A stretch of 64,000 nt of DNA from a virus. Numbering within the stretch: position 1 is the stretch's first letter; the number at the start of each line of letters is the position of its first letter. The notes under the pieces were generated by a model. It was not told the DNA's origin. It did not search any database and saw nothing but the letters and a program-made list of their open reading frames with translations. The stretch spans positions 1 through 64,000 of the IMG/VR virus record IMGVR_UViG_3300043496_000205; one strand, written 5' to 3'. Positions 1,481-51,612 of this stretch are shown one piece after another. The position numbers and the translations under genes are program-made.

Positions 1481-1684
1481 TTAATTCCACTGAACTTCGT
1501 AAATGTCAAACAGGGGAATGACGAACCAGCCTACCTGGTCGTTGCCCGCCAGGATGATGGCGGCTTCCTCGAGGGAAGCGGTATCCTCTCCGTCCGGGTC
1601 CATGAAGGCGTTGATGGGGATTTTTCTTCCATCATCGAGGATGACGTAAAGGTCGATCAGGTTTAAGAATTCCACGGTAGGCAT
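1481..1684 (-). CDS. Small acidic hypothetical protein
   Basis: 67 aa, acidic, with alternating hydrophobic segments (LIDLYVILDDG, AAIILAG, VGWFVIPLF) that suggest a small beta-rich or mixed fold. No membrane segment or catalytic motif. It is divergent from the gp49-like gene at 1720, with only 35 bp between start codons. It heads the leftward run of small genes at 1-1684. The 106 bases between it and the next small frame hold nothing I can assign. Confidence 0.6.
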   Translation of the reverse strand: MPTVEFLNLIDLYVILDDGRKIPINAFMDPDGEDTASLEEAAIILAGNDQVGWFVIPLFDIYEVQWN

Positions 1685-1719
1685 GGTATAAACCTGTCTC
1701 GATTTTGGAGAAAATCATA

Positions 1720-2304
1720 ATGGAAACGAGCTATACGGAACCTGTGACTGAAGAGGAATTGATCGAACGAGCTAAACAGAAGGGTAATCGGGAGAGGGTG
1801 TCCCTGCAGGACCTCAACCGGAACATCGCCGGGGAATTCTACTACAATCCCCAGGAACTGCACCCTCTCACAATTTGCGTGTTGAAGCTGGCCAACGGCT
1901 TCATGGTGATGGGTCACAGCGCTCCGGCTATCCCGGAGAACTTCGATGAGGTGATCGGCAGGCGGCTGGCTCGGGAGAAGTGTGTCGACCAGATCTGGCA
2001 GCTGATGGGCTACGCCCTGAAGGAGCGGGTCGACAATGACACCAAGATGCTGAAGGGAGTGATCGCCCAGCCGCAGGAGGGGTTCGATACCTACATCGGC
2101 ACCAAGGTCATTTATGCCAAGCCATGTACCCGGTATGAGTACCTCGAACTGCGGCAATGGAAATTGCCCGACAATGAGGATGGCAACGATGAGGGCTATC
2201 TGCTGGAGTACACCGACAAGGCCGAGAACGTGCTGGCGCCGTTCACCGGCTACGTGAGCTGGTCACCGAAGGATGTTTTCGAACGGGCATATCGTAAGGT
2301 GTAA
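1720..2304 (+). CDS. Gp49/gp66-family phage protein with C-terminal fusion
   Basis: 194 aa. Residues about 45-105 match the phage N4 gp49/Sf6 gene 66 family: LTICVLKLANGF, then PENFDE, IGRRLAREK and WQLMGYAL. Residues about 125-194 (TRYEYLELRQW through EGYLLEY to GYVSWSPKDVFERAYRKV) resemble a second small phage protein usually encoded on its own. Function of both is unknown. The ATG at 1720 follows TTGGAG by nine bases. It is transcribed in the late direction, ahead of the stem-loop at 2311-2362. The family call is from recognised sequence pattern; the fusion is read from the single uninterrupted frame. Confidence 0.75.
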   Translation: METSYTEPVTEEELIERAKQKGNRERVSLQDLNRNIAGEFYYNPQELHPLTICVLKLANGFMVMGHSAPAIPENFDEVIGRRLAREKCVDQIWQLMGYALKERVDNDTKMLKGVIAQPQEGFDTYIGTKVIYAKPCTRYEYLELRQWKLPDNEDGNDEGYLLEYTDKAENVLAPFTGYVSWSPKDVFERAYRKV

Positions 2305-2310
2305 AAGTGA

Positions 2311-2362
2311 AAAGGCCGGGATGCTGCCTTTAGGAGTCACTCAATAGCGCTTCCCGGCCTTT
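2311..2362. terminator. Stem-loop after the gp49-like gene
   Basis: Perfect 11-bp arms AAAGGCCGGGA/TCCCGGCCTTT enclose a 30-base loop seven bases after the stop of the gp49-like gene. A short T-run follows on the plus strand and a matching one on the minus, so it could terminate transcription from either side and insulate the early-type and late modules. The long loop is atypical of a minimal terminator. A second, weaker stem (CTCCACG/CGTGGAG, 2366-2372 and 2393-2399) follows. The rest of 2400-2536 has no gene I can support. Confidence 0.5.
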
Positions 2363-2536
2363 AGTCTCCACGACACTCGAGCTACAAAATACCGTGGAGG
2401 TTTCGCAAACGGGGTCCCGAATATCAACGCTAGCACGCTGCTGGGTCCCTTATAAACATAATCGTATTTCTGATTTTCAGGTAATAATTATGCATTATCA
2501 ATACCAGATCGAACCCTGGAGACAAGGAAAAATTTG

Positions 2537-3340
2537 ATGTCTCTCTTCGAGAAGCCACCCCTGTTCCCGCCCTCAGAGGCCGAACCCGAAAAAAGCGATG
2601 GAGGTATTCCTGCTGGTACGGGCTCTCCTCCTCTGGTTCCAAAATCTGGGGCTCTCACGGTCGAAGACGTACAAAATGCGGTCCCGAACCATCTCCGGAC
2701 CAGCGTCACCCAGGCCATGGTAGACAACCTCAACACAATCGCAAGCGACCCGGAATTAGCTGAAAACATCCGTGCTAATTTCCTGGGATATTCTGCGATT
2801 TTGAAAGATGGTAAATTTAAAACCGAAGAGTATATCAACGCGGTCACTTATGTCAGCTTCAAGCTGATGGGCTTCACCAACATCGAAGCCTACACGCGAA
2901 CCTTCCCCCAGCGGTACGCGAACCTGGTTGCCAAGGGCACGTCCTCCAAGGATATCTCGGGTTACGTCTCTGCCTACAATAGGGGCAGGCTGCCGAACCT
3001 CATCATGGAGCAGACGCTGGTCCCCACCTGGGTCCTGAACCAGGACATCTACCAGAAGGCCATCAACGTCCAGGCCGAGCTGATGATGAGCTCGAATTCG
3101 GACAAGGTTCGCACTGACGCGGCGAACTCGATCCTCAACCACCTGAAGAAGCCGGAGACAAAAGAATTCCAATTGTCCATTGACACCAACGATTCGGCGG
3201 GGATCAAGGAAATGCGGCAGATGCTTGGTCAGCTCGCCCAGCAGCAGCGTGACCTGATCGAGCAGGGACAGATGAAGACCATCGAGGTGGCTGCCACTCG
3301 CCTTGTTCCACGGGAAACACCGGAAAAAACCCATGAATGA
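2537..3340 (+). CDS. N4 gp69-like protein, possible terminase partner
   Basis: 267 aa. Residues 1-45 are Pro/Glu/Gly-rich and disordered; the remainder is mostly helical, ending in a Gln-rich coiled-coil-like stretch. It directly precedes the large terminase and overlaps it by eight bases, the position of gp69 in N4 (next to gp68). Position beside terminase suggests a small-terminase or packaging role, but no HTH is evident and this is inference. ATG 2537 has AAGGAA seven bases upstream; the TTG one codon earlier is rejected. Confidence 0.6.
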   Translation: MSLFEKPPLFPPSEAEPEKSDGGIPAGTGSPPLVPKSGALTVEDVQNAVPNHLRTSVTQAMVDNLNTIASDPELAENIRANFLGYSAILKDGKFKTEEYINAVTYVSFKLMGFTNIEAYTRTFPQRYANLVAKGTSSKDISGYVSAYNRGRLPNLIMEQTLVPTWVLNQDIYQKAINVQAELMMSSNSDKVRTDAANSILNHLKKPETKEFQLSIDTNDSAGIKEMRQMLGQLAQQQRDLIEQGQMKTIEVAATRLVPRETPEKTHE

Positions 3341-4928
3341 GCGCGTCATTATCAAGAAGTCGATCGACGAATGGCTCGACGAAGTCGACTACCATGACAT
3401 CAATTCCGGATCCTACGTTCCCAGCACTTTTGCCCTGATTTTCATGAATTTCGTCAAGCTGGTAAACGGCTCCGAGGGGGAATCCCACAAGACACCCCCC
3501 GTGCATTTGAAGATGCTCGACAAAATGCTTTCTCCGAGGAATCAGATCGCCAATCTCTGCTTTCGTGGAGCTGCCAAGACGACCCTGTTCTTCGAGTACC
3601 TGGTTCTCTTTATTGCCACCTTCGGTTACCTGCCCGAATTTGGCGATGTGACGGGCATGATCTACGTCTCCGACTCTATGGAAAACGGCGTCAAGGCTGC
3701 GAGGAAGAATGTCCAGTTCCGGTATGACCACAGCGACTTCCTGCAGGAGTGGATACCAGAGGCTTATTTCACAGACAGTTACCTCGAGTTTACCAATCGG
3801 GATGGGCATAAGCTCGGCTGCCGAATGTTTGGCGCTCAGACGGGTCTTCGAGGCACCAAGATCTTCGGTAAACGTCCAGTGCTCGCGGTGCTTGACGATC
3901 TGGTCTCTGACGACGATGCCAAATCCCGAGTGTCGATGGATGCAATCAAGGACAACATCTACAAGGGGGTGAATTACGCCCTGGATCCGACCCGCCGCAA
4001 GATCGTCTTCAACGGCACGCCCTTCAACAAGGACGACATCATGATCGAGGCGGTCGAATCGGGTGCCTGGGACGTGAACGTCTGGCCGGTTTGTGAGAAA
4101 TTTCCCTGCAATCGTGAGGAATTCGTCGGCGCCTGGGAGGATCGCTTCTCCTATGACTTCGTGACCGAGCAATACGAGAACGCGGTCCTGACCGGTAAGG
4201 TCGAAGGCTTCATGCAGGAGCTCATGCTCCGCATTTCGAGCGATGAAGAACGCCTGGTCCAGAACGGGGAGATCAGGGAATATTCAAGAATCCAGTTACT
4301 CGAGCGAAAAGGTGTATTTAATTTTTATATTACCACCGATTTTGCCACTTCCGATAAACAAACCGCGGATTTTTCGGTGATCTCCGTCTGGGCGCTCAAT
4401 GCTCAGGGTGACTGGTTCTGGGTCGACGGCATTGTCGAGCGCCAGACCATGGACAAGACGATCGATGACCTCTTTCGTCTGGTTCAAACCTACAAGCCCC
4501 AGTCCGTGGGCGTCGAAGTCTCCGGCCAGCAGCTGGCTTTCATCAAGTGGTTGCAGCGCGAGATGATGGAACGTAACATCTGGTTCAATTTTGCGTCGTC
4601 GGAAAAGAACAACTCCCCTGGGATCCGGCCCATCGTCAATAAATTGGCCCGCTTTAACTTAATCGTCCCGCTATTTAAGGCGGGGAAGATGTACTTTCCC
4701 AGCGAGTGGAAAACGTCGAAGATTATGGCGCACTTTTATGGCCAGATTCGCCTCGCAACCAAGAATGGCCTGAAAGGCAAGGACGACTGTCTCGACACGA
4801 TATCCATGCTGATGTATCTAAATGCCTGGAAGCCCAGCGAAGAGATCGCGGTCCCTGATCCAGGCAGTGGCATGTGGAAGGATACCTTCCCAGACCAGCC
4901 AAGCGCCATTTCATCATATATTGTTTGA
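3333..4928 (+). CDS. Terminase large subunit (gp68-like)
   Basis: 531 aa packaging motor that translocates DNA into the prohead using ATP and cuts concatemers. The N-terminal ATPase has the Walker A variant FRGAAKTT (R78, K82, T83) and Walker B VLAVLDDLV (D188-D189). The C-terminal RNase H-like nuclease shows TTDFATS with an Asp metal ligand, VGVEVSG, and GKDDCLDTISML with further acidic ligands. Length is typical. Start at ATG 3333 overlaps the end of the gp69-like gene; an in-frame TTG at 3303 would add ten unlikely residues. Expected to dock on the portal encoded at 26454. Confidence 0.92.
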   Translation: MNERVIIKKSIDEWLDEVDYHDINSGSYVPSTFALIFMNFVKLVNGSEGESHKTPPVHLKMLDKMLSPRNQIANLCFRGAAKTTLFFEYLVLFIATFGYLPEFGDVTGMIYVSDSMENGVKAARKNVQFRYDHSDFLQEWIPEAYFTDSYLEFTNRDGHKLGCRMFGAQTGLRGTKIFGKRPVLAVLDDLVSDDDAKSRVSMDAIKDNIYKGVNYALDPTRRKIVFNGTPFNKDDIMIEAVESGAWDVNVWPVCEKFPCNREEFVGAWEDRFSYDFVTEQYENAVLTGKVEGFMQELMLRISSDEERLVQNGEIREYSRIQLLERKGVFNFYITTDFATSDKQTADFSVISVWALNAQGDWFWVDGIVERQTMDKTIDDLFRLVQTYKPQSVGVEVSGQQLAFIKWLQREMMERNIWFNFASSEKNNSPGIRPIVNKLARFNLIVPLFKAGKMYFPSEWKTSKIMAHFYGQIRLATKNGLKGKDDCLDTISMLMYLNAWKPSEEIAVPDPGSGMWKDTFPDQPSAISSYIV

Positions 4929-39090: not shown

Positions 39091-42000
39091 ATGGCTAGTG
39101 TTCTTGGCAACAGCCTCAAGGCGAGTGATTTCACTCAGCCTGCATCCTCGATGCCGCCACCCCCTCCGTCATTGACGGAGCAGGATGTCAGCGATCTGGA
39201 GTTCAGCGCCCGAGACGCAGCCTACAAACGCTCGCAGACAGACTTCACGTCTACCCCCGCCGAGGTGGTGGACCCGCTGGATGAAGCAGCCAAGACGCTG
39301 TGGAAGACAGGCAGTGTAACCGAGGCCATCAAGACCTACTCACCACCGGACCCGAACGCTCCTAAGATGCAGGAGCTTTCGCCGATGATGAAACGGATGC
39401 GTGATCTCAATGAGATCCGCAACGCCACCCAGAGTTCCCAGGGCGTGGCGATGTTCGAGCTGAAGCGCCAGGACACGGAGAACTTCGACAACCAGGTTGC
39501 CAAAGACTACCAGAACATGGACGCCAATGTGTTCGAGCAGGTGTATGGCGCCGAAGCTCGCAACAACATGATGGCCCTGACCCTTGGTGCCGCCGACATC
39601 AACAGGCGAAAGAATACCAGCCGTGGTGTCACAGAGCATCTGCAGGATGCAGGCACCCAGATCGTAGCCGGTGTTCCCTCGCTGATAGGTGGTGTTGGAG
39701 CCCTGGCTCTCAAACTGAACAGCTACACACCTGCTGGCTATGCCCAGGACAAGATTGCTGAATGGGTTGGCATAACCGAGAAGGGTGGACCCACATTCAA
39801 TGAGCAGATGTCCACCACCGTAGCCAAGCTGGGTGAAGCAGGCAGGAAATTTGTCCTACAAAATGAAACCCAGGCAGGCCAGGATCTACGTTATGCCGAC
39901 GAGGTACAGGCAGCTGTCGATCAGGAACAACAGGCCAAGGATTATCGTGAAAATCTTTCCAAGGATGGTCTGGCTCTCGCCGAGCTGAGAGACTTTGGAC
40001 ACAGCCTCACCAACACTGGCTCCAGACTGATCACTGATCCGTCCAGAGGCGCGGCTCTTGTCTTCGAGAGCGTGCCTTCCCTGGCAGCAGGTGGCCCTGC
40101 AGCCAAGGTCATCACCAAGGGCGCCAAGCTCGCCATGGGTGTCGATGCTGCAGCTACTGCAGGCACCAGGGCAGCAGTTGCGGAAGCGATATCCTTCCCG
40201 ACTGCCATCGGTGCGATGGAAGGTGCTGATGCCTACGGTGGCACGACAGCCCAGATCATGAACATGAGCCACGATGAGCTCATGGTGAAGTCGCCCGAGT
40301 ATCAGAAGCTGATCTCGTCGGGCTTCACCGAAGAGGGAGCCAAGACCCGTATCGCTACCAATGCTGGTCTCAAGGCAGCTGCGATCGCTGCTCCTATCGG
40401 AGCAGTCACTTCCGCTGCAGCCAAGACCAAGGCATTCGAAACCAACCTGTTCAAGCCCAGGTCACTGGGTCAGACCGGTGTCAACGTCGCCAAGGAAGTT
40501 CCCGAGGAAGCAGCCCAGGGATTCGGTGGTCAGTACGCCACCAACGAAGGTGTCCAGCAGGCAGCCAATCCAGATCAGCGTGCCCTTGCGGACACTGGTG
40601 CAGCTACTCTGGAGGGTGCTGTCGCAGGCGGTGGCATGCCTCTCCTCACGCATGGCCCGGTGCATGTCACCAAGGGTGCAGGCGAGGTCGCCAAGGCTGT
40701 AGTCGATACCGCTGTCGTCAAACCTCTCAAGATGGTTGGCGATTCACTGGTTGCCAGAGGTGAGGCAAGGAAGGCTGAGCAGGCTGCAAAGGCGCCCACC
40801 TCGACTGAGACACTCACTCCCGAGGTCGCAGCTGCAGCTACGGCTGCACCAGTGGTGGGTCAGAGCCTGCGTGCTTTGGCGGAGGAAGCTGCCAAGCTAC
40901 CCCCTGTAGGGACAACCGAGACAGCCCCGAAGGCTCCAGCCTCAACAACTGAGGCCATCCCTGTGGCCACGACAGAGACTGCCCCTGCTGCTGAGACTGG
41001 AAAGGAAACTGTTACCGGAACCGAGCCAGAGACTGAAGCCCCAGCTACTCCAGAGGAGAGGGAAACCTTCATCAAGAAGGTGGAATCTGCAGCCCTGCTG
41101 CAGACTGAAGACTTCGAGGGCATGCCCATGTCCGTGACCCAGAGAGTGGGTGACCTGGCGCAGTCCAAGGGTGAAGCACCCAATCGCTTCGAGGCCATGA
41201 CCGAGGTGGCCAAGGTACTCGATGACGAGAAGGCTACCCCCGATGAAAAGGTAGCGGCAGCTTCATTTATAACGAAGATTATTAATGAAAATAAGGATCT
41301 GTTCGGTCCTGAATCCCCTCTCCCTGACTTCCTGGCGAATGCTCCTGCGGATCACAAGAGCCGACAGGAGTTCGATAGCTACGCCCAGACCCTGCAGAAG
41401 CTGGGTGATAACCCAGCCATCAAGAAGGCTGTCGACTGGCTTCAGAAGGAAGCTGTCGTCGAGGAGAAAGACTTCAGCACGATCGACCTCAACAGCGAGG
41501 AGGGTCAACAGGCTGTCGATACTGTCGTCAATGTCGCCACGCATGCACCGCATAAGCTGAGCGAAGCCACGGTCGATAGCCTGCTGCAGGCCGATGAGAA
41601 AACCTCCAAGCTGACCCCACGCGCACGCCAGGTCCTGCGTGGCACCCAGTCTACGCTGGCTGCTGAACGTATGTTCTCCGCCAACAATCGCCTACCCGAG
41701 GCAGGACTGGTCGAGGCGGAAGCCAGTGAGCTAGAGACTGAGCTCGAGGAGACCAAGGGTAAGGACGAGGCTACCATTGCCAGGGTCAAGGAGCAGCGTC
41801 AGGCCAGGGCTGCCAAAGCCAAGGCTGCCAAGGCTGAAGCCAGTGCTACTCCTCCTGGATCCACTGAGCAGAGTGACACCGCACCCGGCATAGAGACGCC
41901 GGGCATGAGTGCGGAAGGCTCTGCCAACATCGATCTGATGTCCCGTCAGATCAACGAGGATGGTGGCGCCAAGGCACACCAGAAGCCAATCAAGACTCAC

Positions 42001-45000
42001 GTCGCCGAGATCAGCAAGGCGATCATGTCGGGCGATACCAAGGCCATAAAGAGAGGCATTGGTCATCTATCGATGTTCGCCAAGACCATGCGGAACAAGG
42101 TCAAGGCGATCCAGGCTTCGATCAACACCCCGAAGGGCGATCGTATTCCCTACGAAGCCTTCGACGGTAAGAAGATGCAGCCAGCCGATGGCGTGTTCGA
42201 GACCTACTTCAACAAGAAGGCGGCCAACTCCGCCAAGTATGCCCAGCAAGTTTATGCCGAGGCTGTCGCGCTCACCCAGCTGGCCAATGACTACGCCAGG
42301 GCCAACCCTGGAGCAGGCATTCAGCCTGACGATGAAGAGATCCAGCTGACCCTGCCAGGTCAGGCAACCCAGAGTTCCAAGGCAGGAGTACCTGCTCCGA
42401 CTGCAGACATGGGTCTGGCAGCAAATGTAACTGGGGGAAGCTCAACACCTGGTGCGTCTCCGGCTACCACGTCAGAGACCAAACAGGTGGAGCCTCCCCT
42501 TCCTGGCTCCCCCACTCAGGAGGCGCCAGCAGCTACTGATACAACAGCTGCGGCACCCAAGAGCAAGCCCCCGAGCCAGAAGACTACCGATCTCTCCACA
42601 GTCCCCGATACGGAGCTGCAGAATCGGCTGAACTTTTTTGACAGGCAAAAACAACGCGGCCCATTGAACGAGTGGGCCACGGAAAATGAATCGAAGGTCA
42701 AGGCTGAGCTCGCCAAGCGCAGAGCTACGACACCTGAAAAAACAAAATCCGGAAACCAGTTACCGGACGTTTCCGGACAAGCTGATCAGACCGAAGAGAC
42801 CGATGATGATCTTGCAGCCTACGAGGCGATGGCCTCTGAGCGCAGTGGTCAAGAGGGAGATGCGATCGATCAGTTCGCCGACGAGATAGCTTCTATCCCG
42901 GCTATGGATGCTGATACCGCAGCTAAGTTGATTGATGAATTCAAAACCAGGACACCTACTCAACAGGAACTGGTAGCCCTTAACAAATTCCTCGACACAT
43001 TATCAGACGAAGAGTTTGATAAACTCTATGAAAGAGCTGATAATAATATCAAGATTAGTAACATTAAAGGTAAAGCGATAGCAGGCATCAAGCAGGCTAT
43101 GGATGCGATATCCAAAGCAGCAGGCTTCGATGTCTCGAAGCTGATGCGTGCCGTCAAGGCTGCCACCTTCAAGGAAGGTCCCTCGGGTGGTCAGTTCAAT
43201 ACGGTTGGACCCAGCCTGTTCCTGACCGACAGGGTCCTCGACCGGTTCAACAACGATAAATTCACGCCAGACCAGATGAACCATCTCCTGGCTCATGAAC
43301 TGGGTCATGCTGCCGACTTCCACGCCGCTGGTACCGATGCAGACCATCTGTTCCGCAGCAGCGATGATCCGATGTTCCAGATCAACAGCCCACTCTGGAA
43401 TGAATTCAAGAAGATTAAGGGTCTAGCCAGCAACAGCGTCAACGAACCAACGTGGAGCTACCTGGATAAGTTCGCCAAAAACAGGGAGGTATTCCCCAAT
43501 GAATTCTTCGCCGAACTCGCAGCCTTCGTCCTCAACGAACGAGCCCTCGCCGAAGAGCACCTCCCGCTCGGACTCAAAGCCGTCGAGGAGACCCTATCCA
43601 GGGCCGCAGCAAACCGGCAACTTCCTCGAAGCGGGACTGGCGATACCCAGTCTACCAATCGAGGAGATAACAAGAGCAAGTCGCGATCAAAACAAAAAGT
43701 AATCAAGGATCTCAAGGACCTGGGTCCGGCCCTCGAGGAAACTCAGGAGCCTGCTCCCGAGGCTGAACCCGAAGAAGATCTCGAGCTGACCGACACGTTG
43801 GATGAGAACGCCACTCCTGAGCAGGACATCAAGGAGGCGTTCCCCAACCTGGTTCAGAAGGACAAGAACTGGTTCCACAAGGCGTTCCGGGTGGGCAAGA
43901 AGCTCACCTCACGGATACTCCTGCTGGATCGTCCGCTGTCCAAGATCAAGGCCCTGCTGGATAATCCTGCTGCCCTGCAGGAGTTCATGAAGGGCGCCAA
44001 GATCGAGGGTTACACCCCCAAGGAAAAGGATCTGCGTGCCCATCTGAAGATGCTCGGGCTGGGTGACACTGCCCTCAAGCATCTGAACCAGAGGCTGGCC
44101 AAGGCCCTGGCTGTCAAGAACAAACAGGGCATCTCGGTCCTGGATCAACTGAACAGCGAAGACCCCCAGGTTATCCGGACACGTAATAATCGTATCCTTA
44201 ATCTCCTGGAACTGGATGATAATGGAAATTATAAATATAACCCCCAGCTGATCGAGGGGGCTCTCATAGCTGCAATCGATTGGGCCATGAACATTGGTGA
44301 CCGTCAGGTCCCCATCGATGTCGAGGACATTGCCAAGGCACTGGGTATCGATGAAGCCGAGGCAACCAAGTACCTCGCTGAGTTCAAGCGTGGCCTGTCC
44401 ACCGAGATGGCGGTTCGCTCACTGGCCGAGAACATCAAGAAGCTCTGGGGCCTGCAGACCAACCGTGACACCAACGAGGACTTCACCAAGGGTGTGCCCG
44501 AGGCTGTCGCCAAGGAGATGCTGATGGCGCTCGAGCATGTCGGGCTGATCAGCAGGGGCAATGTCAGCTACACGGTGAACGAGACAGCTATCAACAAGAA
44601 GACTGGCGAGGAGGAAATCGTCAAAGTCCATCCGAGGAAGACAGGCCGTGTCTGGTTCGATGAACGACCCAACCACATAGAGGGCCTGGTCACCTCCCTG
44701 GATCGTACTGCTACCCTGCTGCGGGACATCTCCCTCATCGGTGGCGAGAAGGAAGGCTTTGCATTCGGCAAGCCGATCACTGACGTGGATGACACCCAGC
44801 TGAGACAACGTTGGGTGAAGCTTACCAACTTCGGAAAGAAGGCTCTCCTGGCTGCCCAGGCTGTCCCCCACTACCTGGATCGGACCATGCTCAACTTCTA
44901 CCAGTCGATGGATGAAGATGGCTATGTCGCACTCCGGAGCGGGCGCCCCTACAAGGACGGCGATCTCGAGAAGACCCACACCGAGATGGGCTACAACAAG

Positions 45001-48000
45001 AACGACTGGGAATCGATCAAGGGTCGCCAGCGTGGGCTGCGTACTACCTACCGGAACATCCAGAAGCAGATCGCCGGGATGCAGGCTTACGCCGACCAGG
45101 AAGGCATCGACATCACCAAGGTGCCTGTCTTCTACAGGCATCACATCAATCGTCTGGGCCGCCCCCAGATGGATGGCGCCAGCAATCCGCAGACCGACAA
45201 GACTGCCCGTCACACGTTCGTCTCGACACGGTCGAAGCTGAACCTGTCCAAGCCAGGCAGTGCCGACTTCAATCGTTTCCTCAAGACCGTGGGCCAGGGC
45301 CTCGGCCTCAAGACCGAGAAGCTATTCGGTGATGACATCGCCGCCAAGGTTCTGAACCAGGTGACGGAACCCCTGGGGGAGAACGAGCAGGGCAAGTTCA
45401 ACGAAGCATTCAAGGCTACCAAGACCTGGCTCAAGTCTGACCAGACCAACATGCCGGAGAGCACCTACAAGCTCTTTGAGGCTGCCGAGCTGACGGACCA
45501 TGGCATCCATGCTCTGATCTCGTTTGCCCGCTATGACAATGCACGGGAAGCGGGCGAGGATCTCACCAGCTTCAAGAACTATAATGCCCTCGAGGCTGAC
45601 GGCAAAACCAATGGCGTCATCAATGCACTGATGATGGCAGCCGGTAAGATCACACCCAAGTGGCTACGCACTGTTGCCAAGGGTGGTGTCTTCTTTGGGC
45701 GGCTGAACAAGACTTTGAACCAGCATATGCTGGAGGATAGCGCTGATATTTATCAGGAGGTATCCGGATTAACCGCATATAAAATGAATAATCTGGGTGA
45801 GACCCTGTCCAGGCAGGACAATCCTGCGGCTCATGCCCAGTTCCAAGCCTTCAGGCGTCTCCTCGCACTGATCAATGTGGATGCCACGATCAATGCCGAT
45901 GGCGAGATAGAACTCAAGCGTGGCATAGCCAAGAGCCCGCAGACCAAGTCGGTCTATGGAGCCGGTGGCGATAGCCTGGCTGTCACCGTCACCAATGATC
46001 TGCTCAACGAGATCTACGAAGCCCTGTCGACCGAGGTCAGGACCGGTACCCCTGCGGGTGACATCCTCTATGGCAAGGGTGGCAGCAGGCAGTTCGTCAA
46101 CGACCTGCAGGCGCTCATATCCAACAAGCCGATCTACAGCAACAAGGACAAGAAATGGATCCTCCTGAACGGAGTGTCCTCCAGCTTCCTCAACCCGAAC
46201 CCTGGGGACATCACGCTGAATCCCCAGCAGTTCGATACCTTCAAGAACAATGTGAAAGCCTTCCTCATCGGGCCGATGCAGGAAGCCATCAAGTTCACGG
46301 TCAACGATCACGTCAGCTCAGTCACCTCCCTGGTTCAGCAAGCGACCCAGGTGCAGTCGATCTTCCTGGTCAACATGATGATCGGGGATGTCATTGCTTC
46401 CATGAGAGAGAAGCAGCTCGACAAACAGAAGCATGACTGGAAGCCGGGTGAGATATCATTATCAGAAAATGATATGGACCGTATTAGAAAAACGCTCCTG
46501 CCATTTTCACCATTCATAGACACAGGCACGCAGCGCTACATGATGTCGGGTGGCGAGACCACCGACCTGTTTGATACCATTACGACCGAGGTCAATGGCG
46601 AACCCCTGGTAATCAGGCTCCCGCGTACCTACTCGACGACCCTCGATAAGCAGATGGAGACGGCCATCTATATCTATGGGGCCACCTATGCTGGTGTACG
46701 TGCCATCCCGACACTGAATGTCGGCAGTGGCGACGGCCAGATGATGCTCAATATGCTGGTCGACTATCCCGAAGAAATGAAGCGCATGTTGCACGTCTTC
46801 GACGGTCTCTACATGCCAGCCGACCAGATCGAAGCCTACTCCCAGCTGGTCAATCAGTCGGTCTACCAGACGTGGACCGAGAACGGTAACCCGATACGAG
46901 CTGTCGCCGATAGCTTTGCCAGGTTCATGGAACATAACCCTGTCGATGCCCTCTTCCCTGGATCGGTTCGCGGTCAGCATCAGAACGATGCTCTGCATGA
47001 GATGGCCAAGGTCATCTCCAACAAAAAGATACCCAGCGACGAGGACAGCGTGAACTCCGAGGACGTTCACAAGTGGATGGAGAAGCTGGTCGACAAGCTG
47101 TACGACACAGCCGAAGCCCTGGATCGCAGACGCCAGATCTACACCGAGTTCGACCTGTCGATCGATCAGATGGCTTCAGGCGAAGCGCCCTTCGTCCGCA
47201 AGGGATCCATCGAGACGGCCCCCAATATCAATGAGGATGACCTGGCCCAGGCCATGCAGGCTCGCCTCGAAGAACTCGAGGAACGTGATCGCCGTAAGCC
47301 GAGGGACAGGTACCAGGGAACCAGGAAGAAGGGTCCCCCGGCTCCAGAGATCACAGTCCGTGAGCTGGGGCCTGAGTATGTCCCCACCCCGGTGGAAAAG
47401 TTCCTGCGTCAGTATGCGACGGTTGATACCCAGACCGGCGCCCAGGTGCTCACGGTTGGCAAGCTGAAGAACATCCCCGACCAAGCGGGGATCATGACCA
47501 AGACGCTGAACTATCTGAAGCACAATGATTTCCTGGTGGTGTTCGGCACACCCTCCCAGCTCAATGCATGGAAGCGGGCCAACACGGATCACCAGGGAGA
47601 CGATACGTTCTCCTCTGATACCCAGGGATTAACTGACTTTAGAAACAAGATTATTTATATCGCTAATGGTAACCAGGAAACTGTTACCCATGAGCTGATT
47701 CACGCGGCCACTTTCAAAAAGGTGGACCTCTACTATCAGGGTGGTCACGCCAAGGGATCTCTCTCGCAGTACGACCAGGACGCCATCAAGCGTCTCGAAA
47801 GCCTGATGGGTGAATGGCTGAACGCCACCGGCCCCATCGAGGACATCGGTCAGCGCCAGCTCGACACGGATGCCAGGGCTTCAGTCGTCGGTCACCAGTC
47901 CACTGGTCAACCGGCTGCTGCCCTCAATGAATTCATGGCTTATGTCCTGGCTCACCAGGACCTGGCCAAAGCAGCCGAGGGCGTGACAGTCAAGAGCAGG

Positions 48001-51000
48001 GTGTCCCGGATCATCAAGAAGGCCCTGGCTGCAATCCAGTCCCTGATCTGGGGCAAGGATATCCCGGCACCAGGCACCGACATCCTGTCGAACCTGCGCT
48101 TCAATACGGACGTGCTACTGGCAACGGCGACGCCTCTCCAGCTGATGCGCGACAAGGCCGGGGAAGTGATGCTCTTCCAGAGCTCTGCCTTCGGACAGAA
48201 CGATCGTCTCACCACGGCTCGTGACGGATTCAACCGCAAGATCCTTGCCTGGCTCAACGAGCCTTATATCGGTCCCCTCAAGCCCGGTGCGGCTGTGAAC
48301 CCCACCGCAGCACGAGCCATCGAGACCCACACCCAGCAGGTGAACCGGGCCGCCGAGTTCTCTGGCGCCGAGCTGAGGGCCAACGACTTCGTCAAGGAGT
48401 TCGCGCTTCACTTCGGTGACCTGAACAACATGCAGGCATGGTCGACGTTCGAGATGATCCAGACTGCGCTGTTCACCGATCTCAAACTCAATCCCAATAC
48501 GATGCTCCGCCTCGAGGAGATCTACGATCATGTGATCAGCAACCTGAAGGCCGCGGATTTCCGTACTACCACCGATCCCAACGATGTCGTCGATGCACAG
48601 AAGGCCCAGGACAAATACGAAGCGATCCATGGCCTGAAGATCTTTCATACCGACAGGTACGGAAGGTCCTCCTTCATGAGCTCCTTCCTGGCTCTCTCCA
48701 TAGCGTCGGATGAATTCCGGAACGTGCTCGCCAAGATGGAGAAGCCGAAGACCGAACAGAATACAGCTGGTGGATTTGATGCCGCCGTGGAGAACATGGC
48801 CAACTCCATGCTGGACCGCACCTCGATGGCTTTATCGGGTGAGCGATCCACCAGCTCAACTATTACCGATGTGTTGGATGACCTGACGGTCAAGATGATC
48901 GAGCAGGTAGCCGACCAGGACAAGCACATCGATGTCAAGGCCAACAATCAGCTGAGCAGATTCGAGAACGCCCTCGCCGAGGGGATCCAGAGTGCCAGCC
49001 AGAGGGTATCCGACAAGGCAAACCAGGTAGCCCAGAGTTCCAGTTCTCGGATCGTCAGGGGAGGAGCGAAACTAATTAGGGCTGCGATGGTAGCCATCAA
49101 TGAGGAGCAGGCAGAGCAGGCTCAACTGGGATTAATAGCTAATATTAATAAGTTCGAGGGCCTGCATGAAATCCGTGCGCTCATCAACGATTGGGTTGGT
49201 CGCAACAAACAGAACATGAACGTCTGGGATCTGATCAACAAGGTCAGGGCCATCGCTCAGCAAACCCGCCAGCGCTATCGGAAACAACTCCCCAAGGCGA
49301 TTGCCAAGAAGTTCTCCCGGACACTGAGCAAGGCGGAATACTCCGCGATGTTCAGGGCCTGGGGCAAGACGGACCTGGCTGCCCTGTTTGCCACATACGG
49401 GGCCGCTGGAGCGTTCGAGCTGCTGACCGATACTCGCAAGCTCACTCGTGCGATTGCCTCTCTGGAGGCCACGATCCAGGGCTATGAAGGCCCTCGAGCA
49501 GCGAAGGTGATCCAGAAGGCGAAACAGCACGCCAACTACATGAACACTGGCAACCACGGTGCCAAGTGGCTGAGCAATTCACACGCGATTGCTCACCTTT
49601 ATGGTGAGAACGAGTTCCAGAGTACGCTTCTCAATTCCCAGCTGGAAGACGATGTCGATCAGCTAACCACGCTCTATGCCATGCAGGGCACGAGCCAGGA
49701 GGACCGTGATCTCGTCAAGGAACTTATTAACAATGAAAATGAGGGCTCAAAATTTGTTTACCATTATCTGGTAAGCCTTCGCAAGCATGAACTAACTAAA
49801 GTCTCCGGACGATATGGTACCCCCAACTATGTGAAGGGGCACCTCCCCTCGGAGAAGCAGAACGAGGGCCACCTGGTCGTCGTCGATGACCGTGACCATG
49901 CCGACTGGGCCAAGCTGGGCTATGCCAAGGTCGGTCCTTACGCTGGGTCTTCTGCCGATCGTACCAACAGGGGCAAGAGCTATTACTTCTCGCCGGTCTC
50001 ATCGAAGGCGCCCTTCAGGCAGGGCATCCTGCAGACGGTTCGTTACACAGCCTCTGGCATCGATCCGAACACAGGCTACCTCAGTGATGAACTGACAGCC
50101 GGACGCATCGACAACCAGCAGGTAGTCGACCTGATCCGCAGGCAAGTCTCACGCCAGCGTCAGACCAATGAGAACCTCCGGCCTATCTATGACCAGCAGA
50201 CGGGCGAGACGATCGCTTACGAACGTCTTCTGGATCCAACCAAGATCGTTGGTCTCGATCACAGCACCCACCTGGGCAACATGATCGGTGCCTGGAAGGG
50301 TAGACAAGTCGAGGAGGATTTCGCCCCGGCTCTCAACGAGGAGCTGGTCGACGAGCTCAAGAGCGACTGGGACAAAGGCGTCCGGGATGGCAAGACCAAC
50401 CAGTTCGTCAACGTCTATGCCAGCACCGATCCAGTGATCATGGACGCGGTGAAGCTAATCCCCAACTATACGCGGGACTATATCAAGGGCGAGTTCGGAC
50501 CCAACACCCTGATGATCCGCCGCGACGTGCTGCTGCAGACGCTTGGCGATCGCCAGGCCTCGGTGGGTGACATGTTCACCGGCAGGACACGCTGGAAGCC
50601 AGGCGTGACCGAGCGGTTCGAGAACATCGCAATGGGTCTCTTCGCTACGGCGCCATTCAAGAAACTGTTTGGCGAGGACAAGGCCTACCCAACTCTGGTT
50701 CGGGCCGAAGGATTGATTGGTGATGCAGTCATCGCTGCCAAGACCAACATCGTCATCAAGTCTGTCGTGGTGCCTGTCGCCAACATCATGGCTGGCTTCG
50801 GCCAGCTGCTGAACAGGGGTGTTCCCTTCCGGGATATCGTCACCAAATTCCCCAAGAAGGTGATCGAGATCAACACCTACATCAAGCTTCGCAACAAGGA
50901 GATCGAGCTCGAAGCCGACCTCGAGGCTGCCAAGGGCGAGAACAAACTGAATGAGATCCGCAAGCTGACCAGCAGGATCCAGGCCATCAAAGATTCCTAC

Positions 51001-51612
51001 AAGCACATGAGCATCTACCCGCTGATCGAAGCTGGGCAGTTCGCATCCATCTCGGACGGTCAGGTGACTGCCGAGGACCTGGCCCTGGCTGAGGGCAAGT
51101 GGTCAGAATTCATGACCAATATGATTCAAAAGATTCCTGATAATGGTCTGAGGACTGCAGCTAAATATGGCATCGTCGACAAGGACACTGCCATGTTCCG
51201 GGCACTGGGCGCCGCGACCCAGTACGGTGACTTCGTGATGAAGGCGATCCTCACTGACCACCTGGTCGCCAAGGAGAACAAGTCCACCGATGATGCCATC
51301 GCCGAGGCCAGCGAAGCGTTCGTCAACTACAACGTCCTGGCTGGGCGGTCTCGTGACTGGCTGGAGAGGCATGGCCTTCTCTGGTTCTATAACTACAAGC
51401 TGCGTTCCATGAAGGAAGCAGCCTGGACACTGAGAAACCGTCCGCTCAGGGCATTGATCATGATGTCAGCACCTGGGCTGAGCTCGATCCAGTCGGTGGT
51501 CGACAGCAACTTCATGAGCCTTGCGGTAGAAGGTGATCTGCCTTGGTCGATTGGTCCCGGCATGGGGCTGAACTCATGGGCGATGAATCCCTGGGCTAAT
51601 CTGATCGACTAG
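39091..51612 (+). CDS. Virion RNA polymerase (gp50-like), 4,173 aa
   Basis: Giant single-subunit RNA polymerase packaged in the capsid and ejected into the host to transcribe early genes. Catalytic motifs: NRLGR 2020-2024 (T/DxxGR type), LEADGKTNG with D2170 (motif A), R2277-x3-K2281-x7-Y2289-G (motif B) and VFDGLYMP with D2571 (motif C). The A-to-B spacing equals that of N4. N-terminal 550 residues are helical with Gly/Ala-rich hydrophobic stretches; 560-720 and 1100-1250 are Thr/Pro/Glu-rich linkers. Zincin-like HExxH motifs lie at 1402-1406 and 2867-2871. It is about 670 residues longer than N4 gp50. The extra domains and the C-terminal 1,500 residues are not understood. Confidence 0.93.
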   Translation: MASVLGNSLKASDFTQPASSMPPPPPSLTEQDVSDLEFSARDAAYKRSQTDFTSTPAEVVDPLDEAAKTLWKTGSVTEAIKTYSPPDPNAPKMQELSPMMKRMRDLNEIRNATQSSQGVAMFELKRQDTENFDNQVAKDYQNMDANVFEQVYGAEARNNMMALTLGAADINRRKNTSRGVTEHLQDAGTQIVAGVPSLIGGVGALALKLNSYTPAGYAQDKIAEWVGITEKGGPTFNEQMSTTVAKLGEAGRKFVLQNETQAGQDLRYADEVQAAVDQEQQAKDYRENLSKDGLALAELRDFGHSLTNTGSRLITDPSRGAALVFESVPSLAAGGPAAKVITKGAKLAMGVDAAATAGTRAAVAEAISFPTAIGAMEGADAYGGTTAQIMNMSHDELMVKSPEYQKLISSGFTEEGAKTRIATNAGLKAAAIAAPIGAVTSAAAKTKAFETNLFKPRSLGQTGVNVAKEVPEEAAQGFGGQYATNEGVQQAANPDQRALADTGAATLEGAVAGGGMPLLTHGPVHVTKGAGEVAKAVVDTAVVKPLKMVGDSLVARGEARKAEQAAKAPTSTETLTPEVAAAATAAPVVGQSLRALAEEAAKLPPVGTTETAPKAPASTTEAIPVATTETAPAAETGKETVTGTEPETEAPATPEERETFIKKVESAALLQTEDFEGMPMSVTQRVGDLAQSKGEAPNRFEAMTEVAKVLDDEKATPDEKVAAASFITKIINENKDLFGPESPLPDFLANAPADHKSRQEFDSYAQTLQKLGDNPAIKKAVDWLQKEAVVEEKDFSTIDLNSEEGQQAVDTVVNVATHAPHKLSEATVDSLLQADEKTSKLTPRARQVLRGTQSTLAAERMFSANNRLPEAGLVEAEASELETELEETKGKDEATIARVKEQRQARAAKAKAAKAEASATPPGSTEQSDTAPGIETPGMSAEGSANIDLMSRQINEDGGAKAHQKPIKTHVAEISKAIMSGDTKAIKRGIGHLSMFAKTMRNKVKAIQASINTPKGDRIPYEAFDGKKMQPADGVFETYFNKKAANSAKYAQQVYAEAVALTQLANDYARANPGAGIQPDDEEIQLTLPGQATQSSKAGVPAPTADMGLAANVTGGSSTPGASPATTSETKQVEPPLPGSPTQEAPAATDTTAAAPKSKPPSQKTTDLSTVPDTELQNRLNFFDRQKQRGPLNEWATENESKVKAELAKRRATTPEKTKSGNQLPDVSGQADQTEETDDDLAAYEAMASERSGQEGDAIDQFADEIASIPAMDADTAAKLIDEFKTRTPTQQELVALNKFLDTLSDEEFDKLYERADNNIKISNIKGKAIAGIKQAMDAISKAAGFDVSKLMRAVKAATFKEGPSGGQFNTVGPSLFLTDRVLDRFNNDKFTPDQMNHLLAHELGHAADFHAAGTDADHLFRSSDDPMFQINSPLWNEFKKIKGLASNSVNEPTWSYLDKFAKNREVFPNEFFAELAAFVLNERALAEEHLPLGLKAVEETLSRAAANRQLPRSGTGDTQSTNRGDNKSKSRSKQKVIKDLKDLGPALEETQEPAPEAEPEEDLELTDTLDENATPEQDIKEAFPNLVQKDKNWFHKAFRVGKKLTSRILLLDRPLSKIKALLDNPAALQEFMKGAKIEGYTPKEKDLRAHLKMLGLGDTALKHLNQRLAKALAVKNKQGISVLDQLNSEDPQVIRTRNNRILNLLELDDNGNYKYNPQLIEGALIAAIDWAMNIGDRQVPIDVEDIAKALGIDEAEATKYLAEFKRGLSTEMAVRSLAENIKKLWGLQTNRDTNEDFTKGVPEAVAKEMLMALEHVGLISRGNVSYTVNETAINKKTGEEEIVKVHPRKTGRVWFDERPNHIEGLVTSLDRTATLLRDISLIGGEKEGFAFGKPITDVDDTQLRQRWVKLTNFGKKALLAAQAVPHYLDRTMLNFYQSMDEDGYVALRSGRPYKDGDLEKTHTEMGYNKNDWESIKGRQRGLRTTYRNIQKQIAGMQAYADQEGIDITKVPVFYRHHINRLGRPQMDGASNPQTDKTARHTFVSTRSKLNLSKPGSADFNRFLKTVGQGLGLKTEKLFGDDIAAKVLNQVTEPLGENEQGKFNEAFKATKTWLKSDQTNMPESTYKLFEAAELTDHGIHALISFARYDNAREAGEDLTSFKNYNALEADGKTNGVINALMMAAGKITPKWLRTVAKGGVFFGRLNKTLNQHMLEDSADIYQEVSGLTAYKMNNLGETLSRQDNPAAHAQFQAFRRLLALINVDATINADGEIELKRGIAKSPQTKSVYGAGGDSLAVTVTNDLLNEIYEALSTEVRTGTPAGDILYGKGGSRQFVNDLQALISNKPIYSNKDKKWILLNGVSSSFLNPNPGDITLNPQQFDTFKNNVKAFLIGPMQEAIKFTVNDHVSSVTSLVQQATQVQSIFLVNMMIGDVIASMREKQLDKQKHDWKPGEISLSENDMDRIRKTLLPFSPFIDTGTQRYMMSGGETTDLFDTITTEVNGEPLVIRLPRTYSTTLDKQMETAIYIYGATYAGVRAIPTLNVGSGDGQMMLNMLVDYPEEMKRMLHVFDGLYMPADQIEAYSQLVNQSVYQTWTENGNPIRAVADSFARFMEHNPVDALFPGSVRGQHQNDALHEMAKVISNKKIPSDEDSVNSEDVHKWMEKLVDKLYDTAEALDRRRQIYTEFDLSIDQMASGEAPFVRKGSIETAPNINEDDLAQAMQARLEELEERDRRKPRDRYQGTRKKGPPAPEITVRELGPEYVPTPVEKFLRQYATVDTQTGAQVLTVGKLKNIPDQAGIMTKTLNYLKHNDFLVVFGTPSQLNAWKRANTDHQGDDTFSSDTQGLTDFRNKIIYIANGNQETVTHELIHAATFKKVDLYYQGGHAKGSLSQYDQDAIKRLESLMGEWLNATGPIEDIGQRQLDTDARASVVGHQSTGQPAAALNEFMAYVLAHQDLAKAAEGVTVKSRVSRIIKKALAAIQSLIWGKDIPAPGTDILSNLRFNTDVLLATATPLQLMRDKAGEVMLFQSSAFGQNDRLTTARDGFNRKILAWLNEPYIGPLKPGAAVNPTAARAIETHTQQVNRAAEFSGAELRANDFVKEFALHFGDLNNMQAWSTFEMIQTALFTDLKLNPNTMLRLEEIYDHVISNLKAADFRTTTDPNDVVDAQKAQDKYEAIHGLKIFHTDRYGRSSFMSSFLALSIASDEFRNVLAKMEKPKTEQNTAGGFDAAVENMANSMLDRTSMALSGERSTSSTITDVLDDLTVKMIEQVADQDKHIDVKANNQLSRFENALAEGIQSASQRVSDKANQVAQSSSSRIVRGGAKLIRAAMVAINEEQAEQAQLGLIANINKFEGLHEIRALINDWVGRNKQNMNVWDLINKVRAIAQQTRQRYRKQLPKAIAKKFSRTLSKAEYSAMFRAWGKTDLAALFATYGAAGAFELLTDTRKLTRAIASLEATIQGYEGPRAAKVIQKAKQHANYMNTGNHGAKWLSNSHAIAHLYGENEFQSTLLNSQLEDDVDQLTTLYAMQGTSQEDRDLVKELINNENEGSKFVYHYLVSLRKHELTKVSGRYGTPNYVKGHLPSEKQNEGHLVVVDDRDHADWAKLGYAKVGPYAGSSADRTNRGKSYYFSPVSSKAPFRQGILQTVRYTASGIDPNTGYLSDELTAGRIDNQQVVDLIRRQVSRQRQTNENLRPIYDQQTGETIAYERLLDPTKIVGLDHSTHLGNMIGAWKGRQVEEDFAPALNEELVDELKSDWDKGVRDGKTNQFVNVYASTDPVIMDAVKLIPNYTRDYIKGEFGPNTLMIRRDVLLQTLGDRQASVGDMFTGRTRWKPGVTERFENIAMGLFATAPFKKLFGEDKAYPTLVRAEGLIGDAVIAAKTNIVIKSVVVPVANIMAGFGQLLNRGVPFRDIVTKFPKKVIEINTYIKLRNKEIELEADLEAAKGENKLNEIRKLTSRIQAIKDSYKHMSIYPLIEAGQFASISDGQVTAEDLALAEGKWSEFMTNMIQKIPDNGLRTAAKYGIVDKDTAMFRALGAATQYGDFVMKAILTDHLVAKENKSTDDAIAEASEAFVNYNVLAGRSRDWLERHGLLWFYNYKLRSMKEAAWTLRNRPLRALIMMSAPGLSSIQSVVDSNFMSLAVEGDLPWSIGPGMGLNSWAMNPWANLID

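Follow-up and report, generated by a model that had tools for sequence, protein, structure and literature searches.

Phage N4 ejects its virion RNA polymerase (vRNAP) into the host along with the DNA, and this enzyme transcribes the early genes (PMC12633501). The structure of this protein, gp50 (PDB 9pnr and 9pnt; Bellis et al. 2025, PMC12633501), has a linker at residues 907-1006 and a C1 domain, in which an HExxH motif was pointed out by the structure authors themselves. As far as the main text of Iyer et al. 2017 describes them (PMC5512222), the polyvalent proteins with a zincin-like MPTase are, like the vRNAP reported here, multidomain ejected proteins with RNAP, zincins and ADP-ribosyltransferase (ART).

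The window, i.e. the whole stretch of 64,000 nucleotides analysed here (positions 1 to 64,000 of the IMG/VR virus record IMGVR_UViG_3300043496_000205, which has 77,620 bases), carries an ORF of 4173 aa on the + strand (39091..51612). PHROG 2206 matches residues 131-4172 of this ORF (1925 bits, E 0), and N4 gp50 in the PDB aligns with 1559-4171 as well as with parts of the N-terminal domain (E 0). The RNA polymerase core (residues 1589-2735, 43855..47295, + strand) was delimited by PDB 3q0a and other mini-vRNAP chains, and it keeps all the catalytic residues of the N4 mini-vRNAP, R424, D559, K670, Y678 and D951 (N4 numbering). Judged by its homology to N4 gp50 and these conserved catalytic residues, the ORF is an N4-type vRNAP (Schitoviridae) and, by analogy with N4, would be packaged and ejected. 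Since the DNA polymerase of the window phage is closest to those of Sinorhizobium, Agrobacterium and Rhizobium schitoviruses (around 60-62%), the host is likely alphaproteobacterial.

Two HExxH motifs had been noted in the first-pass annotation of this ORF, i.e. HELGH (residues 1402-1406) with E1471/E1475 and HELIH (2867-2871) with E2947, and all of them are present at these positions. The first H and the third Glu are 69 and 80 residues apart, respectively; the layout described there holds, while its spacings of about 65 and 75 residues were approximate. The motifs do flank the polymerase, with HELGH before and HELIH after the stretch aligned with the N4 mini-vRNAP. A shuffled window vRNAP carries 0.07 HExxH on average, and two or more in 0.24% of the shuffles; for both motifs being real, homology is stronger evidence than this shuffling. 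Both domains are also gluzincin-like and of the polyvalent-protein type, as had been proposed, on the basis of their conserved motifs and of AlphaFold2 models with a confident zincin topology, i.e. short strands, then the HExxH helix, then a later helix with the third Glu.

The domain after the polymerase (z2, residues 2763-3020, 47377..48150, + strand) was assigned as the vRNAP C1 domain from its N4 match, AlphaFold2 and Foldseek. Its HELIH (H2867, E2868 and H2871; 47689..47703, + strand) and the candidate third metal ligand E2947 in NEFMAYVL (47929..47931, + strand) are invariant in 69 aligned homologues, together with the Glu four residues upstream of HExxH, a conservation that is partly by construction since the homologue loci were gathered by HExxH or NEFMA motif patterns. 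By tblastn, the z2 region matched 218 phage records, annotated, among the matches listed, as (virion) RNA polymerase or not at all, and its HExxH was found in all 15 phage-collection loci inspected (14 tblastn matches and N4). The z2 profile matches N4 residues 2124-2376, i.e. the C1 domain of the 2025 structure, and both the HExxH and the downstream NEF helix sit at the C1 position (2124-2375). The AlphaFold2 model (pLDDT 91.4, pTM 0.90) has the HExxH in helix 100-126 and the third Glu in helix 179-192 (model numbering), and its Foldseek neighbours in the PDB were N4 gp50 (E 1e-7) followed by the lethal factor family. By these comparisons, z2 is the family-wide C1 zincin of vRNAPs, already described in 2017 and 2025, and a core peptidase-like unit of the vRNAP.

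Two further occurrences of z2-type zincins were observed. The z2 profile matches 9sfn_G, an internal virion protein of 1337 aa in the PDB, over both catalytic helices (E 3.5e-6); therefore, a z2-type zincin is also found in an ejected protein other than the vRNAP. In addition, the vRNAP ORF of L152 harbours a second z2-type zincin upstream of the polymerase, at about residues 388-480 (HEMLHAVTLEAL ... AINEFMAYGL), for which a duplication of z2 is plausible.

The domain before the polymerase (z1, residues 1310-1512, 43018..43626, + strand) was delimited as an M90/MtfA-like catalytic core by a leave-one-out profile, hhalign and AlphaFold2. The window z1 sequence alone received no assignment in Pfam, PHROG or PDB sequence searches, and neither tblastn of the phage collection nor scanning viral contigs with the single sequence found it elsewhere; when the contigs were first scanned with a z1 profile, this returned only other HExxH proteins (L021-L025) and no vRNAPs. 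An HExxH is found at the same pre-polymerase position in Rhodovirinae roseophages (23 phage records) and in further metagenomic vRNAPs. A profile of 12 z1 domains without the window recovers the window z1 with 40 bits (E 7.6e-12), against about 3 bits for the best non-family vRNAP or shuffled protein. The extra HExxH of L087 (HEILH) was missed by the z1 profile and was taken as chance. Within 12 z1 domains, H, E, H and Asp of HExxHxxD, to which HELGH belongs (H1402, E1403 and H1406; 43294..43308, + strand), and E, F and A of a downstream E-x-F-A are invariant. E1471 (43501..43503, + strand) aligns with the invariant third Glu in the E-x-F-A column and is the candidate third metal ligand, whereas E1475, the other residue suggested for this role, was rejected as its column is not conserved.

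The z1 copy of L079 passes the Pfam M90 cut-off (50 bits); the window z1 has no match above it and is hence called M90-like rather than a member of M90. The best PDB matches of the z1 family profile are MtfA (E 0.005-0.017), and hhalign of the z1 profile, the window included, against 11 cellular M90 proteins from bacterial genomes gave 96.7% (E 3.8e-10), spanning both helices, and still 94.3% after removal of three of the rows scoring best against the M90 models. The M90 assignment of the window z1 thus runs via its relatives, its own sequence falling short of the M90 models, and the match is limited to M90 positions ~110-235 of 247, i.e. the catalytic half, with the N-terminal half missing. 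The AlphaFold2 model of z1 (pLDDT 85.8, pTM 0.85) places the HExxH in helix 84-103 and the Glu in helix 159-173 (model numbering); its Foldseek neighbours in the PDB, all weak (best E 0.0095), were the lethal factor family, selecase, PPEP-1 and one HExxH oxygenase, which is not a peptidase. As judged from profiles and model, z1 is an M90/MtfA-like gluzincin core inserted into the linker before the polymerase.

In the z1 gene tree, the window branch has no resolved position and no donor is picked out. By a simple Nei-Gojobori estimate on pairs of relatives other than the window, three pairs gave z1 dN/dS values of 0.10, 0.15 and 0.31, comparable with the polymerase values of the same pairs or slightly higher. 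For the linker preceding z1, two of these pairs gave 0.65 and 0.84. The divergent pair L002/L012, in which synonymous sites are near saturation, had a higher value for z1 (0.52) than for the linker (0.35). The earlier suggestion that the zincins may be decayed finds no backing in the ligands, which are intact in both domains, or in the dN/dS of the first three pairs, and decay of z1 or z2 is unlikely.

As to the occurrence of the pair in other vRNAPs, z2 was present in every vRNAP examined, whereas z1 was missing in N4 and in the nearest polymerases. The region that contains z1, an exchange slot at residues ~1158-1559 (42562..43767, + strand), was delimited by the N4 alignment, by its absence in the nearest relatives and by differing contents in close pairs. 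Its N4 counterpart consists of about 20 residues (964-984) in the linker that joins the N-terminal domain to the polymerase, and in the window low-complexity linkers flank z1. The five nearest polymerases (L031, L036, L046, L029 and L030), all of which miss z1, align to the window until ~1167-1248 and resume at ~1490-1525; in L036, an overlapping second segment starts from 1028, and a global alignment gives no support across z1. Of the 100 distinct vRNAPs whose upstream sequence was long enough, an M90-type z1 occurs in 13, scattered over the tree, another zincin type in three (L078, L085 and L153) and a z2-type copy in one (L152). On the polymerase tree (FastTree), the M90-type z1 requires nine changes, at least eight of them forced by well-supported branches, gain and loss being indistinguishable here.

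Close pairs differ in the same place. L079 and L107 share 79-86% identity just upstream of the slot, 73-86% downstream and 16% inside, their far N-terminal part being 50% identical. L103 and L085 share 69-75% outside against 22% in the slot, where they carry two different zincin types, and L002 and L012 are 33% identical in the slot but 75-79% in the polymerase, z2 and the C-terminal domain. Pfam found ART-PolyVal in 7/66 and GGDEF in 1/66 pre-polymerase regions, and in L113 the spacing between the ART and z2 is close to that between the roseophage z1 motif and z2.

Several individual slots are worth recording. ART-PolyVal lies directly before the polymerase in the vRNAPs of L113, L117, L186 and L086, and relatives of these phages carry z1 there. 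The GGDEF domain (E 1.5e-12) was found on a Dyella genome contig, in the pre-polymerase region of its vRNAP (L187:2787-4736), and an early manipulation of cyclic-di-GMP is possible in this case. The slot of L094 has HGLAH where its close relative L078 has HELEH, i.e. a slot zincin of another type that has lost the catalytic Glu.

We consider it reasonably likely that the window vRNAP belongs to the ejected polyvalent proteins and combines two zincins that differ in origin, z2 being the family-wide C1 zincin and z1 an exchangeable M90-like effector and putative host-directed peptidase. Such a role as exchangeable, host-directed cargo is probably the best description of z1, because it is optional and is replaced by an ADP-ribosyltransferase in relatives. 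Carried into the cell together with the DNA, as in N4, z1 would refold after ejection and coordinate a divalent metal ion by H1402, H1406 and E1471. With E1403 acting as general base, it would then cleave a cytoplasmic protein of the host at an early stage of infection and so offer an alternative to the ADP-ribosyltransferase that other schitoviruses carry in the slot. The conserved z2 would be another metallopeptidase-like unit, acting on a substrate shared across the vRNAP family. More tentatively, it is tempting to speculate that the pre-polymerase linker of schitovirus vRNAPs might be a dedicated exchange site for host-directed effectors (MtfA-like peptidase, ADP-ribosyltransferase, GGDEF and other zincins) delivered before any phage gene expression, and that the cargo here is an MtfA-like peptidase removing a host regulator or defence protein.

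Alternatively, one or both zincins could cleave the flexible linkers of the giant polypeptide and free the domains after ejection. Zincin processing of multidomain polypeptides is proposed in the main text of Iyer et al. 2017 (PMC5512222), and the low-complexity linkers on both sides of z1 are in line with it. However, recombinant full-length N4 gp50, z2 included, showed no degradation (PMC12633501), and an optional z1 that is swapped for the non-peptidase ART is hard to square with a required processing enzyme. We therefore regard self-processing as unlikely and, for z1, as less likely than host-directed cargo. Somewhat more doubtful still is that the domains are not peptidases at all, the HExxH folds being structural or serving other catalysis such as an oxygenase reaction. 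In favour of this, Foldseek matched z1 with the HExxH oxygenase domain of 8s5f, which is alpha-ketoglutarate-dependent (E 0.025), and the N4 structure paper notes HExxH in non-protease enzymes too and reports a salt bridge between C1 and the polymerase (PMC12633501); yet neither the general-base Glu nor the third-ligand Glu varies in either domain, i.e. the pattern of gluzincin peptidases, and the nearest cellular family of z1, M90, is a named peptidase family.

That a single zincin unit was duplicated across the polymerase, as the first-pass annotation had imagined from two HExxH...E domains flanking the core and as the upstream z2-type copy of L152 might suggest, is highly improbable, since the z1 and z2 profiles match each other with a probability of only 10-15%, over the strand and motif helix, z2 matches the cellular M90 proteins at 2% against the 96.7% of z1, and BLASTP between the two window domains aligns the motif alone. 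The profile comparison refutes a recent duplication, a remote common zincin ancestry being conceivable, and by this measure z1 and z2 belong to different families.

Phage proteins that act ahead of the first phage transcript are difficult to find, and a variable slot in the single giant injected protein of schitoviruses provides a circumscribed set of early-effector candidates that can be tested by domain removal or point change in a single gene of a laboratory phage. The conserved zincin, whose role must be family-wide, is now also separated from an accessory zincin with a possibly host-specific target.

Our literature search returned no paper that connects vRNAP with M90 or MtfA-like domains. 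The main text of Iyer et al. 2017 (PMC5512222) neither names z1 as M90-like nor describes a pre-polymerase exchange slot, and its 'one or more' MPTase domains may include the roseophage z1; in the literature found, which covers Iyer et al. by its main text, z1 is not described as an M90-like exchangeable pre-polymerase domain. In N4 gp50, the C1 domain corresponds to z2, with the same HExxH in the same place after the polymerase (PMC12633501), but a pre-polymerase zincin is absent and there is just a low-complexity linker. The vRNAPs of Rhodovirinae roseophages, e.g. DSS3phi2 and EE36phi1, carry z1 and z2 in the same order as the window, although their z1 is only ~15-26% identical to the window z1 and their polymerase sits on a distant tree branch. 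Finally, MtfA and peptidase family M90 (PF06167; PDB 3dl1 and 9srw) share with z1 the HExxHxxD followed, after ~60-70 residues, by the E-x-F-A helix; while MtfA is a free cellular protein of ~260 aa, z1 corresponds to its catalytic half only, placed inside a phage polymerase.
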